From the NCBI GenBank assembly GCA_021810565.1, contig JAJZIM010000028.1, forward strand, positions 1 to 37,791: a stretch of 37,791 nucleotides of DNA. The letters are read 5' to 3'. The DNA comes from Bacillota bacterium (lineage in GTDB: Bacteria; Bacillota; Sulfobacillia; JAJZIM01). Below the pieces are notes generated by a model. The model saw only the letters and a list, made by a program, of their open reading frames with translations. It had not been told where the DNA came from and did not search any database. The translations under genes were made by a program, and so were the position numbers. Of this stretch, positions 2,089-37,791 are shown in pieces (the first letter of the stretch is position 1; each line of letters opens with the position of its first letter).

Positions 2089-3344
2089 AGGGCGCGTGCC
2101 ACCTCCTCGATCTCCTCCCGATCCTCCAGCCCATCATACCACGCCCGAGGCAATGAGCAAGCACCGCCGTAGGCGCCGGCCAGCGCCCCGGCCATGGACG
2201 CGACGCTGTCCGTGTCCCCGCCGGCCTCCACCGCCCGGGTCAGCACCCCCGCCAGGTCCCCCGGGCTCAACAGGAAGCAATACAGGGCGGCGGGCAGCGT
2301 CTCCCGGACATCGCCGGAGGTGCCGATGCGCCCCAGGGCCGCCGCCGGCTCCAACCCCCAAAATTCCTCCACCCTCCGGATCCGCCCGGCCAGCTCCCGG
2401 TCCCAACCCCGGGCCACCTCGGCCGCCCCCTCCAGAAAGGAAGCCGCCTCCACCGTCGCCGTCGTCGCGGCCTCCCCCACCGCCCAGGCCATGGCCACCG
2501 CCCCCGCCACCGCCGCCGGGTGCTCGTGGGTCAGGCGGGCGGACTGGGCCGCCGAGGCCAAGAGGCGCGCGCCGTCCCGGGCGTACAGAAGGCCCAGGGG
2601 CGCCACCCGCATGGCCGCGCCGCAGCCGACCGAGGACACCCCCGAGGGGTAAGCGCCCCGGGCCAGGTTGCGGGCGGCCTGCAGGGAGGCCCGGCCCGCC
2701 CGCCGCGGTCCGCCCCGGTACCACTCGACCAGTTCCCCCGCCCAGGCCTCGGGTGCGAAGCCGCCCGCCGCCAGCAGGGAGCGGGCCAGGGCCAGGGTCT
2801 GCTGGGTGTCGTCGGTGTACTGCCCCGGCCCCAGGTCGCCTCCCGACAGGTAGTGGCGCACGCTACCCCAGCGCGCGCGGATCTCCTCCGCGGTCAGCCC
2901 CTCCACGGGCATGCCCAGAGCGTCCCCCGCGGCCGCCGCCAGCAGGCTGCCGGCAAAGCGCTCCTGGGGCGGCGGCACCCGCCGTGCGGGCGCCTCCCCC
3001 CGCAGGACATATCCCGCCCCGCCCCTCTCCCAGCGCAAGGGATTGCCCAGGTAGACCCAGGCCGGGCCGCCCCGCACCGGCACCCGGCGGCGCAGGTAGA
3101 GGGGCACCGCCTCCCGGGCTCCCTCGTAGCGGTCCAAGGCGGGAAGGTCCGCCGCCGCCAACTCCCACAGCCGCCCGCGCACCGTGCCGCCCGCAACGGG
3201 AAAGAGCACCGGGTAGCCCTGGTCGGTGGAGAAGACGGCGAATCCCTCCAGCACCGTCTCCCCCAGCGGCTTTGCCCCGTGCTCCACCACCCGCGCCAGC
3301 ACCGCGGCTTCCCGCAAGGTGCCGTAGGCGAAAAGACGGGCCAT
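2064..3344 (-). CDS. Fusion of gamma-glutamylcyclotransferase-like and ADP-ribosylglycohydrolase domains
   Basis: The 426-residue protein has two domains. Residues 1-115 look like the GGCT/AIG2 fold: an FAYGTLRE opening at 5-12 and DRYEG at 71-75, whose Glu74 would be the catalytic acid. Residues 128-426 look like a DraG/ARH ADP-ribosylglycohydrolase: ERFAGSLLAAAAGDALGMP, then YTDDTQ (176-181) and AGGDTDSVASMAG (374-386), the two Asp-rich Mg-binding motifs. The likely chemistries are release of 5-oxoproline or a related amide cleavage, and removal of ADP-ribose from a protein or small molecule. It starts 4 bases after argH ends, so it belongs to the same transcript. The fusion makes functional sense only if both act on one target, which is unknown. 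Confidence 0.85.
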   Translation of the reverse strand: MARLFAYGTLREAAVLARVVEHGAKPLGETVLEGFAVFSTDQGYPVLFPVAGGTVRGRLWELAAADLPALDRYEGAREAVPLYLRRRVPVRGGPAWVYLGNPLRWERGGAGYVLRGEAPARRVPPPQERFAGSLLAAAAGDALGMPVEGLTAEEIRARWGSVRHYLSGGDLGPGQYTDDTQQTLALARSLLAAGGFAPEAWAGELVEWYRGGPRRAGRASLQAARNLARGAYPSGVSSVGCGAAMRVAPLGLLYARDGARLLASAAQSARLTHEHPAAVAGAVAMAWAVGEAATTATVEAASFLEGAAEVARGWDRELAGRIRRVEEFWGLEPAAALGRIGTSGDVRETLPAALYCFLLSPGDLAGVLTRAVEAGGDTDSVASMAGALAGAYGGACSLPRAWYDGLEDREEIEEVARALWELARRS

Positions 3345-3348
3345 AGGC

Positions 3349-4721
<1,373 letters not shown>

Positions 4722-32058: not shown

Positions 32059-33045
32059 TCATCCCAGGCCGTCCTTCCGGCCTGCGGTGGATTCCATCCG
32101 CCCGTCATATTCCCCGCCGGTGAAGGTGAAGGGGTTTGGCACCGTACCCGTGGAGACAGGGTTGCCGAAGGCGTCGTAGCGGTAGGCGTCCACCACGCTT
32201 CCCGCGGCATCGGTCAGGGCCGTGGTGCTACCCAGCCCATCCTGGAGGTAGTAGTAGCTTTGCCCGCCCCGGGTCATCTCCAGGGCGCTGTCCGCGCGCA
32301 GCCCCGTGGTGTACACGGCGGCCAGGCTGTCCCCGTCATACTCCAGGTGGATGTTCGCCCCGTCGTACACATATCCCGTGGCCTGGCCCGCGGCGTCTAC
32401 CCCGATGCGCCGTCCCAGGGCGTCGTAGGCGTACGTGGTCGTGGTGCCGTCGGGGTAGTGGACAGCCAGCAGCTGGTGGTCCGCGTTCCACTCGAAGCTG
32501 GTTACCGCCCCGGTGGCGATGTCGGTGCGGCTCGTGAGGTTGCCAGAATTGTCGTAGGCGTAGGTGTAGGTGCCGTCCGAGGTCAGCCGGTCCGCCGCGT
32601 CGTAGGCATACTGGGCGCCGTTGGCGCTGGTCCGGTTGCCCGCCGGATCATAGGTGTACGTCGCATCGGTCAAGCCGGAGGCTGCCGGGTAGGTTGCCCC
32701 CGTGAGCCTCCCGGCGGCGTCGTAGGTGTAGGTGCTGGTGCCGGCAAGGCCGTTGCGCGACGTGCGCCGCCCCGCCGGGTCATGGGCGTAGCGCGACTCG
32801 GCCAGGGTGGTGGAGCCCAGGGAGGCGACACGACTGGTCAGTTCCCCCGCCTGGTCATATTGCAGAAGGTCGTCGACCCCGTTGGGGCGGGTGATGGACG
32901 TCAGCCGCTCCAGGGCGTCGTAGCCGAAGTGGAAGCTGCCCCCGGACGGATCCGTGAGGCTGGTCAGCAACCCGTCGGGGTTGTAGGCGTAGCCGGTGGT
33001 GCCCTCCGGGCCCGTCAGGGACAGGCGGTTGACGGTTAGGTCACA
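32059..33045 (-). pseudogene. RHS core fragment C, tip lost
   Basis: This is a displaced RHS/YD-repeat core with motifs such as GYDALERLTSITRPNG, YTYDAAGRLTGATY and YYYLQDGLGSTTALTD. It begins abruptly at about 33045 (VNRLSLTGPEGTT) without a start codon; the longest ORF is 32059-32970. At its 3' end the EYD segment differs from copy B by a one-base deletion, so the frame reads GRMESTAGRKDGLG and stops. The RYYDPGTGRFLSEDP boundary and any toxin tip are missing. It is probably a dead relic of an earlier toxin gene, but its DNA can still recombine with copies A and B. Confidence 0.8.
32086..33045 (-). repeat. RHS core long direct repeat, copy C
   Basis: About 0.95 kb is nearly identical at the DNA level to 34341-35300 and, over its first part, to 37041-37791. 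Long runs of bases are unchanged, with scattered substitutions. Confidence 0.85.
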
Positions 33046-33058
33046 TGCGTAGGCTTAC
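33034..33058 (-). other. Possible solo IS66-like end between immunity gene B and copy C
   Basis: Read on the minus strand this starts GTAAGC and continues with TGTGACC, similar in style to the ends of the element at 33639-33843. It lies 1 base after the stop of the AT-rich gene, exactly at the junction with RHS copy C. It may mark an excised or deleted IS66-type element. Weak evidence. Confidence 0.3.
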
Positions 33059-33059
33059 A

Positions 33060-33608
33060 TCAGAATAAGTGCATGTCTTCGACCGCAGGAATCTGCTTCA
33101 ATACTGCTACGCCTGTATCTAAAGCCCGATTTATCATAATATCCAAAGCATACATCGTAGCCTTTTCAAAAGCATAGGATGATGAACTAATTGTAGCATG
33201 CCTAGCATATAACACGTCAAAAGCAAGATAATGGCCAGAAAACTCAACCCTATTGAAATAATTTATTATTCCGTTTTTTACCCCAGGATAGAATTCACTT
33301 GGCAAGCCCAAATAAATGTCTCCATGACGATTATCATGTCTGAAAAATCCTTTGGTTGTATATATAGAGAGAGGAGATTCTGTGCGAGGCATAGGAATAT
33401 AATGCAATACCATTAAAATGCAGGCATAGTTTTGTTTAGCGCCATAGAATGACCATTCTACGCCGAACGTGAGCGACTTATTTATATGAAGGATAGGGCT
33501 TTTTGAAGGCAACGGAAAATATACATTATAAATACATCTTTTATTAACATCTTGAGATATTTCTTTGATATCTAATTCCTTAAGAGAGCCTAAGATCTTA
33601 AGCAACAT
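33060..33608 (-). CDS. AT-rich gene, candidate immunity protein for RHS tip B
   Basis: The 182-residue protein has no recognised family. It is soluble, with aromatic-rich strands (GVEWSFYGAKQNYAC, GDIYLGLPSEFYPG) and a C-terminal helix (ATMYALDIMINRAL). Base composition is strikingly unlike the surroundings (17 G/C in the 60 bases 33481-33540). ATG 33608 has AGGTG 6 bases upstream; GTG 33617 is an alternative. Before insertion of the 205-bp element, its start would have lain about 35 bases after the stop of tip B. Position directly after an RHS toxin tip is the basis for the immunity call. Confidence 0.6.
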   Translation of the reverse strand: MLLKILGSLKELDIKEISQDVNKRCIYNVYFPLPSKSPILHINKSLTFGVEWSFYGAKQNYACILMVLHYIPMPRTESPLSIYTTKGFFRHDNRHGDIYLGLPSEFYPGVKNGIINYFNRVEFSGHYLAFDVLYARHATISSSSYAFEKATMYALDIMINRALDTGVAVLKQIPAVEDMHLF

Positions 33609-33630
33609 ATACCACACCTACTTTTATTGC

Positions 33631-33638
33631 ATTGAAGC
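33631..33638. repeat. Target-site duplication, left copy
   Basis: ATTGAAGC directly abuts the left inverted repeat of the 205-bp element and is repeated exactly at 33844-33851 on the other side. Confidence 0.85.
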
Positions 33639-33843
33639 GTAAGCTTTCAGTGAACCCGGCCGTGGCTGCCTGCGGCTGTGAAAATATACGTCAGAGCTGC
33701 CAACTGGAAGCTGGTCGGGATTACTGAGGGCCGGGGCAAAAAGGGCCAGGAAAAGGGGAGAAAAGCCAAGCTTCCCCTCAAGTCGATTTATCTCTATCCC
33801 CTGACCAAGACCAAGTCGTAAACGCGGTTCACTGAAAGCTTAC
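33639..33843. mobile_element. 205-bp non-autonomous element with IS66-like ends
   Basis: The ends are perfect 18-bp inverted repeats: GTAAGCTTTCAGTGAACC at 33639-33656 and its exact complement at 33826-33843. The element is flanked by the 8-bp direct repeat ATTGAAGC. Termini beginning GTAA and 8-bp target duplications are the recognised features of the IS66 family. No transposase is encoded, only a 47-codon frame, so it would depend on a full-length relative elsewhere. The perfect repeats and duplication suggest recent insertion. It sits between RHS tip B and the AT-rich candidate immunity gene, and it lengthens their spacing from about 35 to about 245 bases. Confidence 0.85.
33678..33821 (+). 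CDS. 47-codon frame inside the mobile element
   Basis: A GTG-initiated frame encodes a basic peptide (KIYVRAANWKLV..., ending YLYPLTKTKS) filling most of the element. It is too short for any transposase and is not recognised. The composition is protein-like (strand-type start, Lys/Gly loop), so it may be a passenger fragment of a captured gene. There is no clear ribosome site. Confidence 0.25.
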   Translation: MKIYVRAANWKLVGITEGRGKKGQEKGRKAKLPLKSIYLYPLTKTKS

Positions 33844-33851
33844 ATTGAAGC
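33844..33851. repeat. Target-site duplication, right copy
   Basis: ATTGAAGC, identical to 33631-33638, lies 2 bases beyond the stop codon of RHS tip B. Confidence 0.85.
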
Positions 33852-33853
33852 AT

Positions 33854-35371
33854 TCATCTAATGCCATAGTACGCAAACCATGACGAGCTAAAAAATTGGG
33901 GATACTGCTGGATTACCGACGGGTGGTAAAGGTCAAATTCCCTTACGCCATATCTCGCAAGAGTTTCAGAGTGAGCTATATCTCGGGTGAGACCTCGCTT
34001 TACCAAGTTTGATTCGTAGAGTTCGTGTTGATAGAAGTTAATATCTTGTTGCGTTCTAAGACCTCCCTTTAATCGCTCGAGCATCACTCGATTATAGGGA
34101 TATTCTTCATCATATTCTAATTCAATCTCTTGCAAGTAATCACTAATGGCATTGAGCCCTTCATTGGTAACAACAGGCTCGATTTGTTGGATTCCCGCCG
34201 TTTCTTCATACTCAACGATATCAGTTCCGCTTGGATCTACGAAATCCACCGGATCGTTGCCAGCATAGGGATAAGGATTGAACGAAGGTGACGGGTCCTC
34301 GCTCAGGAACCTGCCCGTACCGGGGTCATAATACCTAGCCCGGTAGAAGTAGATTCCATCCTCCCCGTCATATTCCCTGCCCGTGAAGGTGAAGGGGTTC
34401 TCCACCGTCCCCGTAGAGACGGGGTTGCCGAAGGCATCGTAGCGGTAGCTGTCCACCACGCTGCCGGTTGCGTTTGTAAGTGCCGTGGTGCTCCCCAGGC
34501 CGTCCTGGAGGTAGTAGTAGCTTTGCCCGCCCCGGGTCATCTCCAGGACGCTGTCCGCGCGCAGCCCCGTGGTGTACACGGCGGCCAGGCTGCCCCCGTC
34601 ATACTCCAGGTGGATGTTCGCCCCGTCGTAGACGTAGCCCGTGGTCTGGCCCGCGGCGTCCACCCCGATGCGCCGTCCCAGGGCGTCGTAGGCGTCGGTG
34701 GTGGTGGCGCCGTCGGGATGGTGCACCGCCAGCAGCTGGTGCTGCGCGTTCCAATCGAACCTGGTTACCGCCCCCGTGGCGATGTCGGTGCGGCTGGTGA
34801 CGTTACCCGAGTCGTCGTAGGCGTAGGTGTAGGTGCCGTCCGATGTCAGGCGATCCGCCACGTCGTAGGTATACTGGGTGCCGTTGGCACTGATCCGGTT
34901 GCCCACTGGGTCGTAGGTGTACGTCGCATCGGTCAAGCCGGAGGCTGCAGGGTAGGTTGCCCCCGTGAGCCTGCCGGCGGCGTCGTAGGTGTACGTGCTG
35001 GTACCGGCAAGCCCGGTGCGCGACGTGCGCCGCCCCGCCGGGTCATAGGCGTAGCGCGACTCGGCCAGGGTGGCGGAACCCAGGGAGGCGACGCGGCTGG
35101 TCAGCTCCCCCGCCCGGTCATATTGCAAAAGGTCGTTGACGCCGTTGGGGCGGGTGATGGACGTCAGCCGCTCCAGGGCGTCATATCCGAAGCCGAAGCT
35201 GCCGCTCGACGGATCGGTGAGCGTCGTCAGCAGGCCGTCCGGGTTGTAGGCGCAGCCGGTGGTGCCCTCCGGCCCCGTCATGGACAGGCGATTGCCGGCC
35301 GGGTCGTAGGTGTACGACAGGGTCACCGTGGGCTGCGGCGCATACACGCTTCCCGTGGTGGTCTGAGACAC
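33854..35371 (-). CDS. Displaced RHS core with C-terminal tip B (orphan toxin module)
   Basis: The 505-codon open frame contains RHS/YD repeats, the conserved boundary RARYYDPGTGRFLSEDP and PVDFVDPSG, then a roughly 123-residue tip (33854-34225). The tip reads NAISDYLQEIELEYDEEYPY, LRTQQDINFYQHELYES, TRDIAHSETLARYGV, FDLYHPSVIQQYPQFF. I do not recognise a named toxin domain; the His-Glu and Ala-His pairs are candidate catalytic residues. The tip DNA is more AT-rich than the core, so it came from another donor. There is no ribosome site at GTG 35371, and the core upstream is broken, so the module is probably silent unless recombined into an expressed RHS gene. Confidence 0.7.
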   Translation of the reverse strand: MSQTTTGSVYAPQPTVTLSYTYDPAGNRLSMTGPEGTTGCAYNPDGLLTTLTDPSSGSFGFGYDALERLTSITRPNGVNDLLQYDRAGELTSRVASLGSATLAESRYAYDPAGRRTSRTGLAGTSTYTYDAAGRLTGATYPAASGLTDATYTYDPVGNRISANGTQYTYDVADRLTSDGTYTYAYDDSGNVTSRTDIATGAVTRFDWNAQHQLLAVHHPDGATTTDAYDALGRRIGVDAAGQTTGYVYDGANIHLEYDGGSLAAVYTTGLRADSVLEMTRGGQSYYYLQDGLGSTTALTNATGSVVDSYRYDAFGNPVSTGTVENPFTFTGREYDGEDGIYFYRARYYDPGTGRFLSEDPSPSFNPYPYAGNDPVDFVDPSGTDIVEYEETAGIQQIEPVVTNEGLNAISDYLQEIELEYDEEYPYNRVMLERLKGGLRTQQDINFYQHELYESNLVKRGLTRDIAHSETLARYGVREFDLYHPSVIQQYPQFFSSSWFAYYGIR

Positions 35372-35745
35372 GATGCGGCCGACGGCGTCGTAGGCGAATG
35401 CGATAGTGCCGTTGGCGTTGTCCGCCGACGTCAGCTAGCCCAAGGGGTCGTAGCCGTAGGTGTTCACCTCACCGTCCGGCAGGGTCTGCGAGATCAGCCG
35501 TCCGTCCGCGTCGTAGGCGTAGGTCACCGTCTGGCCGTCTCGGGTGGTCCTGGATGTCAGGTGGCCCGCGGCGTCGTAGGCGTAGGCGGCGATGTGGCCC
35601 AGGGGTTCGTGGCCGAGGTGAGGTCCCCCAGGGCATCGTAGGCGTAGGTCCAGGTGTGGCCGTTGGCGTCGGTGAAGGAGGTCAGGTGCCCCTCCGGATC
35701 GTAGCTGGAGGTCGTGGTGTCTCCCAAGGCAACGGAGTTGCTTTG
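34220..35745 (-). repeat. RHS core long direct repeat, copy B
   Basis: Near-identical to copy A (36930-37791) and copy C (32086-33045) over their shared length. Similarity to copy A at the DNA level falls sharply beyond the LSEDP codons (about 34220-34290), although the protein is still similar there. That marks the recombination boundary of the tip. Confidence 0.85.
35372..35745 (-). pseudogene. Broken upstream part of RHS copy B
   Basis: RHS repeats continue upstream of the open frame (TSADNANGTIAFAYDAVG, then TYGYDPLG and TYAYDADGRLISQ), but TAG at 35437-35435 interrupts PLG/LTS. Near 35602-35605 a run of four G (plus strand) is one base short of what the repeat frame needs. The first recognisable repeat is TTTSSYDPEGHLTSF at about 35690-35733, fused to the 3' end of the immunity gene of cassette A. 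No start codon or ribosome site precedes it, as expected for a displaced 3' cassette. Confidence 0.7.
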
Positions 35746-36482
35746 AGATCAAGCGCCTTGTTTATTCTTCTTTGCTGCATCAGGTCACTATCCGAATCGT
35801 TGTCAATGGGGTGCTCGGTGGCTTGTATGAGGAGCCCCTCGTCCAGCGTTTCCACCCGATACAAGCCGGCGCGGTGAATCCGCTCCATCCCTACCCTCTC
35901 CACATGCGCATGGTCTAAGAAATTCAGCCAATGAATCGTTGGCGGAAGATCCCTATCTTGATCCCAAGCGCCAAAACGTGAATCATTGCGTTTATTGATA
36001 ATCGCGCCCCAATACGGGCGGAAGGCTTTGACGCAGTCCCGGAACAAATCATAGGTGCGCGGAGAATCCAGCTTGCCCTCTTCCCAAAAATATATGGGAA
36101 AATTGATGCCGAGGCTGTTTCTGTGCGCGGTGGCTCCCACCGTCAACTGAACTCCACACATGGTGTCATTATCCATGGTGGTGAAGAACCATAGTCCGCT
36201 GCCGAATTCTGGGTGCTCCGTGATCGCCGTCTTTTTCTCCCCTTTCTCTATGTAGCGAAACACCGATCGGTTTCTTCCCTTCCTTTCCACCAGCCGCAGG
36301 TAGTGGTCGTGGTCGCAGGCGAACTGCTCGGCGTTCTTCTTGCCGCGTCCCACGATGTACCGGGGCGCAAAGGGCTCCCCGTAGCGGAAAAGCACCTGCA
36401 GCACCGCAAATCCGGGCTCCACGGACTCCTTGGCGGACGTGTCCGTGTGACGCAGCAAGGTCAAGCGGTGGGTTTGAGCCAT
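35682..36482 (-). CDS. Candidate immunity protein for the RHS Tox-REase-5-like tip
   Basis: The 266-residue soluble protein begins 9 bases after the toxin stop, with AGGAGG lying inside the toxin's last codons. It has WFFTTMDNDTMCGVQL, KAFRPYWGAIINKRND and PPTIHWLNFLDHAHVERVG, the style of Imm52-type immunity proteins, which I recall as partners of Tox-REase-5; the family name is tentative. It should bind and neutralise the nuclease in the cytoplasm. The last 19 or so residues (from ATPLPWETP) are translated from RHS copy B DNA in the wrong frame, so the natural C-terminus was replaced at the cassette junction. Confidence 0.65.
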   Translation of the reverse strand: MAQTHRLTLLRHTDTSAKESVEPGFAVLQVLFRYGEPFAPRYIVGRGKKNAEQFACDHDHYLRLVERKGRNRSVFRYIEKGEKKTAITEHPEFGSGLWFFTTMDNDTMCGVQLTVGATAHRNSLGINFPIYFWEEGKLDSPRTYDLFRDCVKAFRPYWGAIINKRNDSRFGAWDQDRDLPPTIHWLNFLDHAHVERVGMERIHRAGLYRVETLDEGLLIQATEHPIDNDSDSDLMQQRRINKALDLKATPLPWETPRPPATIRRGT

Positions 36483-36491
36483 CGGTACGTC

Positions 36492-37791
36492 TCATCCTCC
36501 TTGCATCGGCTCGTAGATCAGCTGGATGCGCAAAATTTCTGGTAATTTGCCCTTCGCAGCGTCGTCTAACAGGGCTCGGGTGGCGTTCAGGGAGGCCTGG
36601 TTGGAGAAGTACCACCTGATTGGCAGGCCGTTGGAGGCAGCCACTTGCCTCTTTGCCTGCTCCACGAGCGCCTCTGCTCCTTTGAACCAATCATAGAATT
36701 CTCCCTCCTTGTTCACGAAATTCGCGTAGTTATCCTTCGCCTCCACCAGCGTCCCATCCTGCATGCCGTCGAATTTCGTGCCGTTTTGCAACCACACCTT
36801 GCTGGTCCCGGTTATGTACTCCTGGTATGCTCTAGACGCCGCGCTCATGCTTTCATTGGCCTCTGCCCATCCACCCTGCGGCTCCTGCTCGACGAGGGTG
36901 GCATATTCGTCCGTCGTCTGGGCGCCGCTGGGATCGACATAGTCCACCGGGTCGTCCGCGGCGTAGGGGTAGGGGTTGTAGCTGGGCAGCGGATCCTCGC
37001 TCAGGAACCTGCCCACACCCGGGTCGTAGTACCTGGTCCGGTAGTAGTAGATTCCATCCGTCGAGTCATATTCCCTGCCGGTGAAGGTGAAGGGGTTCTC
37101 CACCGTTCCCGTGGAGACGGGATTGCCGAAGGCGTCGTAGCGGTAAGCGTCCACCACGGCGCCCGCGGCATCGGTCAGGGCCGTGGTGCTCCCCAGGCCG
37201 TCCTGGAGGTAGTAGTAGCTTTGCCCGCCGCGGGTCATCTCCAGGGCGCTGTCCGCGCGCAGCCCCGTGGTGTACACGGCGGCCAGGCTGCCCCCGTCAT
37301 ACTCCAGGTGGATGTTCGCCCCGTCGTACACGTATCCCGTGGCCCGGCCCGCGGCGTCTACCCCGATGCGCCGTCCCAGGGCGTCGTAGGCGTAGGTGGT
37401 CGTGGTGCCGTCAGGGTAGTGGACAGCCAGCAACTGGTGGTTCGCGTTCCACTCGAAGCTGATTACTGCCCCGGTGGCGATGTCGGTGCGGCTCGTGACG
37501 TTACCCGAGTCGTCGTAGGCGTAGATGTAGGTGCCGTCCGAGGTCAGCCGGTCCGCCGCGTCGTAGGCATACTGGACGCCGTCGGCGCTGGTCCGGTTGC
37601 CCACCGGATCGTAGGTGTACGTCGCATCGGTCAAGCCGGAAGCCGCCGGGTAGGTTGCCCCCGTGAGCCTGCCGGCGGCGTCGTAGGTGTAGGTGCTGGT
37701 GCCGGCAAGGCCGGTGCGCGACGTGCGCCGCCCCGCCGGGTCATAGGCGTAGCGCGACTCGGCCAGGGTGGCGGAACCCAGGGAGGCGACG
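36492..37791 (-). CDS. RHS-repeat protein with Tox-REase-5-like C-terminal nuclease tip (5' end outside window)
   Basis: The frame is open to the right edge (about 432 codons seen). It has YD repeats (YTYDAAGRLTGATY, YVYDGANIHLEYDGG, YYYLQDGLGSTTALTD), the RHS core end RTRYYDPGVGRFLSEDP and PVDYVDPSG, and then a roughly 143-residue tip. The tip has VWLQNGTKFDGMQDGTLVEA followed by Lys, a restriction-endonuclease-like pattern with an Asp and a Glu-x-Lys, plus WYFSNQ and LPEILRIQLIYEP. This fits Tox-REase-5. It would be delivered by an export system outside the window and cleave nucleic acid in rivals. This is the only cassette with an undamaged core in view. Confidence 0.82.
   Translation of the reverse strand, partial: VASLGSATLAESRYAYDPAGRRTSRTGLAGTSTYTYDAAGRLTGATYPAASGLTDATYTYDPVGNRTSADGVQYAYDAADRLTSDGTYIYAYDDSGNVTSRTDIATGAVISFEWNANHQLLAVHYPDGTTTTYAYDALGRRIGVDAAGRATGYVYDGANIHLEYDGGSLAAVYTTGLRADSALEMTRGGQSYYYLQDGLGSTTALTDAAGAVVDAYRYDAFGNPVSTGTVENPFTFTGREYDSTDGIYYYRTRYYDPGVGRFLSEDPLPSYNPYPYAADDPVDYVDPSGAQTTDEYATLVEQEPQGGWAEANESMSAASRAYQEYITGTSKVWLQNGTKFDGMQDGTLVEAKDNYANFVNKEGEFYDWFKGAEALVEQAKRQVAASNGLPIRWYFSNQASLNATRALLDDAAKGKLPEILRIQLIYEPMQGG
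36930..37791 (-). repeat. RHS core long direct repeat, copy A (continues beyond the edge)
   Basis: Near-identical to copies B and C. The repeat ends at the PVDYVDPSG codons, after which the tips diverge completely. Confidence 0.85.

Follow-up and report, generated by a model that had tools for sequence, protein, structure and literature searches.

A probable Rhs toxin locus end followed by orphan toxin/immunity modules in a high-GC, Spo0A-bearing member of the Bacillota

The window, by which we mean the complete 37,791-nucleotide stretch of DNA analysed, very likely (probability about 0.88) ends in a competition toxin locus of the Rhs (WapA-like) type, represented by its 3' part, with an array of orphan toxin/immunity modules behind it. 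It comprises the whole of contig C24 from a 3.18-Mb genome in 115 contigs that encodes Spo0A, and its G+C content is 70.5% over positions 1-31000. The array is located on the minus strand, so that its 5' end is the right end of the window (37791). From there, core A, a Tox-REase-5 tip, a TsiV-like gene, core B, tip B, a MITE, an AT-rich gene and core C follow one another in 5' to 3' direction, and past core C lies an unrelated TauE gene on the opposite strand. The features are:

36930..37791, minus strand: Rhs core A (RHS_repeat, Rhs_assc_core), truncated at its 5' side where the contig stops
36492..36929, minus strand: tip A, putative toxin domain of the Tox-REase-5 nuclease fold (PF15648, E 2.3e-13)
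35682..36482, minus strand: likely immunity gene A, weakly TsiV/DUF3396-like (PF11876 E 0.002, below cut-off)
~34240..~35744, minus strand: Rhs core B, an orphan that lacks a start signal, with a frameshift near 35600 and a TAG at 35437
33854..34239, minus strand: tip B, putative toxin domain without Pfam/NCBIfam model, motif FYxHExxE...AH...YHPxVI
33639..33843, minus strand: MITE of 205 bp with 18-bp terminal inverted repeats GTAAGCTTTCAGTGAACC and an 8-bp target duplication GCTTCAAT
33060..33608, minus strand: likely immunity gene B, AT-rich, open reading frame listed from GTG 33617
about 32059..33045, minus strand: Rhs core C, an orphan remnant that lacks start signal, tip and immunity gene and is frameshifted at its 3' end

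A whole-genome search placed the right boundary of C24 within core A. A second contig, C113, is likewise broken off within the Rhs core repeat; beyond the copies on these two contigs no further RHS repeats occur anywhere in the assembly, which also holds no full-length rhs gene. The 5' chassis is thus missing from the assembly, so that delivery, promoter and identity of the main gene lie out of view. As both contigs end inside the core, a gap in the assembly is the probable reason why a full-length chassis with secretion signal is absent, and our claim covers only the 3' part of the Rhs/WapA locus.

Core copies, decay and recombination

RHS_repeat/YD repeats are matched by cores A, B and C, and Rhs_assc_core by A and B. 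Both PF05593 and TIGR03696 scored above cut-off in A, B and a fourth copy on C113, while core C has kept the repeats and lost the end of the core domain. Over 726 shared in-frame bases, A and C are 94.4% identical, A and B 91.6%, and B and C 90.4%, with a dN/dS of 0.15-0.26 between the cores. The cores thus descend from functional chassis and are paralogues formerly under purifying selection. A first-pass annotation had described three near-identical cores on one strand; number and strand agree with our results, but at 90-94% identity the copies are less alike than that. It had named low core identity, or an own start and ribosome site for each copy, as evidence against a common array. Identity was 90.4-94.4%, and neither B nor C has an in-frame start preceded by a Shine-Dalgarno sequence, not even a four-base match at normal distance. 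That the copies are independent genes is ruled out by this core identity together with the missing starts.

Cores B and C exhibit the traits of orphan modules: both are partial, lie on the same strand and lack a translation start. Core C, which had correctly been placed directly after the neighbour of B and described as tipless, spans ~33045-~32084 as a core; its 3' end is frameshifted, and tip and immunity gene are both lost.

Contig C113 ends in the fourth core copy, which carries a SitA6-like (DUF2380) tip; behind this tip are two tandem SitI6/Imm11-like genes and then a DUF4272 gene (all within L004 8334-11476). After the DPSG boundary, the tips of A, B and the C113 copy are mutually unrelated. 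The C113 core itself is a mosaic, the first ~140 bases being B-like and the remainder A-like (maximum chi-square 28.4, permutation p 5e-5), which is direct evidence for recombination within the core. The mosaic tests on cores A and C were not significant. Displacement of the orphan tip/immunity modules by core recombination is well supported: B and C lack start signals and have decayed, homologous cores carry unrelated tips, the fourth core is a mosaic, and the same architecture recurs in a genome of the same class (G043:C8, see below).

We propose that cassettes of tip and immunity gene arrive with core sequence on either side and enter the resident core by recombination. The long chassis would thereby gain a new tip, while its former tip and immunity gene, together with the previous end of the core, would stay behind downstream. 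Lacking start signals, the orphan toxins are probably silent; the immunity genes, whose start sites are retained, may continue to confer protection from relatives that use the former toxins, and core homology would let an orphan tip return to the main gene.

Serial insertion of cassettes is not the only conceivable route, as the 3' end of rhs may have been duplicated in tandem before tips were exchanged in the copies. Duplication prior to recombination, by which the old immunity gene is kept, has been proposed for other systems (PMC3150448, PMC3967940), and the core fragments here do begin at different points, B and C differing in where they start within the core. However, outside the core the tips and immunity genes of the window bear no resemblance to one another, which duplication alone does not account for, and we regard this route as unlikely. 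Slightly less probable still is an import of the orphan modules as a ready-made block that never served as tips of the genome's own main rhs gene. Such an origin would fit the base composition of tip B and its partner (42% and 36% GC, compared to 71% for the window) and the fact that C is nearer to A than B is. It is disfavoured by the homology of cores B and C to core A and by their host-like GC content of 67-68%, and also because immunity gene A runs directly into core B: compared to a Desulfomonile homolog, its native end lies at ~35743 (the last few residues were compared by eye), and the last ~20 codons of the open reading frame are core B sequence read out of frame. An assembly artefact, i.e. 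a repeat collapse or chimera joining unrelated rhs ends, might be suspected from the MAG-like assembly and the two contigs ending inside the core, but is very improbable, because the 6-10% of sites at which the copies differ suffice to tell them apart, lesions and MITE are copy-specific, and the same architecture occurs in another genome (G043:C8).

Displacement by core recombination is therefore our preferred reading; the order of events is less firmly placed. The first-pass annotation took A-B-C as a record of successive replacements with A the newest. Replacement by recombination holds, whereas the order, including the recency of A, is only consistent with position and decay. Core divergence does not follow array position, and the fourth core with its different, SitA6-like tip complicates the matter. 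Because the contig breaks off within core A, module A could be an orphan as well; with the 5' chassis missing, the main-gene copy cannot be distinguished, so that we can but infer A to be the newest.

Toxin/immunity pairs of the array

The toxin and immunity roles of tips A and B and their partners are putative, being predicted from sequence. For module A, the expected Tox-REase-5-like tip and neighbouring gene were both recovered. Tip A is in a continuous reading frame with core A, and its PF15648 match exceeds the curated cut-off. The ATG of the adjacent TsiV-like gene is preceded by AGGAGG, and in a Desulfomonile MAG a homolog of this gene is located behind a Tox-REase-5 tip; it is likely the immunity partner of tip A.

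Module B was found as previously described, without start codon, adjoining the end of the gene of module A, and with an unrelated tip and an AT-rich neighbour. The start of this neighbour, immunity gene B, has a weak ribosome-site match. The MITE, whose ends are presumably IS66-like, separates tip B from the gene of its partner; the first-pass annotation had noted neither this element nor the fourth core nor the break of the contig within core A. A second copy was not found in this assembly, and its remnant reading frame gave no Pfam match.

No Pfam or NCBIfam model covers tip B or partner B. Homologs of tip B terminate WXG100, Rhs and spike-like proteins (one family, same phylum), and the pair of tip and partner occurs at nine further loci in two phyla on these three types of carrier. 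According to searches with a partner profile built from three sequences (window, G124 and a plasmid), the partner gene is positioned immediately behind the tip in 9/9 intact further loci; two of these had contributed to the profile, six others scored at E 3e-20 to 3e-56, and one match was weak (E 8e-4). Among plasmids, Methylosinus OB3b yielded the sole tip B homolog, which lies beside an Rhs piece, and viral contigs and phage records yielded none. On this plasmid (Methylosinus trichosporium pOB3b3, L061 2935-3869), the partner is annotated from an internal start at 3420; the match to the immunity family is given by a longer frame that begins at 3327. Structure predictions from single sequences were poor (mean pLDDT 47 for tip B and 34 for partner B). 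WXG100 proteins are absent from the host genome, which makes a WXG100-type T7SS route unlikely here. Tip B and its partner probably represent a toxin-immunity family pair that has not been described before, in which the motif HExxE...AH...YHP is conserved and which has been exchanged between phyla and between chassis of the Rhs, WXG100/T7SS and spike-like types; the pair appears to be unnamed so far.

Relatives and published arrays

Genome G043, a member of the same class, contains a contig (C8; L050 1-11891) with an array longer than the present one, in which three further core copies, differing in their downstream sequence, lie behind a long rhs end and share its strand, and two further contigs with two cores each. 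Such arrays are thus not peculiar to the genome studied here. On C8, one partner matches DUF7674, and none of the tips reaches the cut-off of any Pfam family. When genomes were scanned with core A, no close relative emerged, 60 relatives contained distant Rhs proteins only, and no genus or family relative displayed a before-and-after state.

The array is a further example of the published orphan Rhs/CdiA toxin-immunity arrays of E. coli, Salmonella and S. suis (WapA). It extends the known range of orphan Rhs modules to a high-GC, Spo0A-bearing lineage, and the mosaic core copy shows core recombination directly. As a by-product, a conserved putative toxin-immunity pair without Pfam/NCBIfam model emerged that is found on several delivery systems and can be simply tested.

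Published orphan modules differ in the extent of their core homology, lack initiation signals and are disrupted by IS elements, and their arrays comprise as many as eleven pairs (PMC3150448); the 'fossil record' model (PMC4927057) is the same reading as that of the first-pass annotation. The orphan cdiA-CT/cdiI and rhs-CT/rhsI arrays of E. coli EC869 and EC93, Yersinia and Dickeya (PMC3150448, PMC4927057) resemble the present one in their same-strand tandem tip/immunity modules, variable core lengths, missing start signals and disruption by mobile elements; they belong to another phylum and another chassis, and here the 5' part of the main gene is outside the view. The rhs locus of Salmonella Typhimurium, where recombination between main gene and orphan was shown in evolving populations (PMC3967940), shares an orphan tip with core homology able to recombine with the main gene, but has one orphan as opposed to two here, one of them tipless. 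The C113 tip and its two partner genes match the SitA6/SitI6 families of Myxococcus (TIGR02269 and TIGR02264) with scores below the equivalog cut-offs; in Myxococcus, the SitA6 toxin domain resides on a lipoprotein, whereas on C113 it is an Rhs tip. Within the Bacillota, the wapA loci of Streptococcus suis strain WUSS351 each contain two truncated duplications that carry toxin/immunity pairs of their own, which are interpreted as former pairs displaced in the downstream direction (PMC12704120). The statement that such arrays are not commonly described in high-GC Bacillota therefore needs narrowing, as the arrangement is published for this phylum, albeit in a low-GC host and with different tips.
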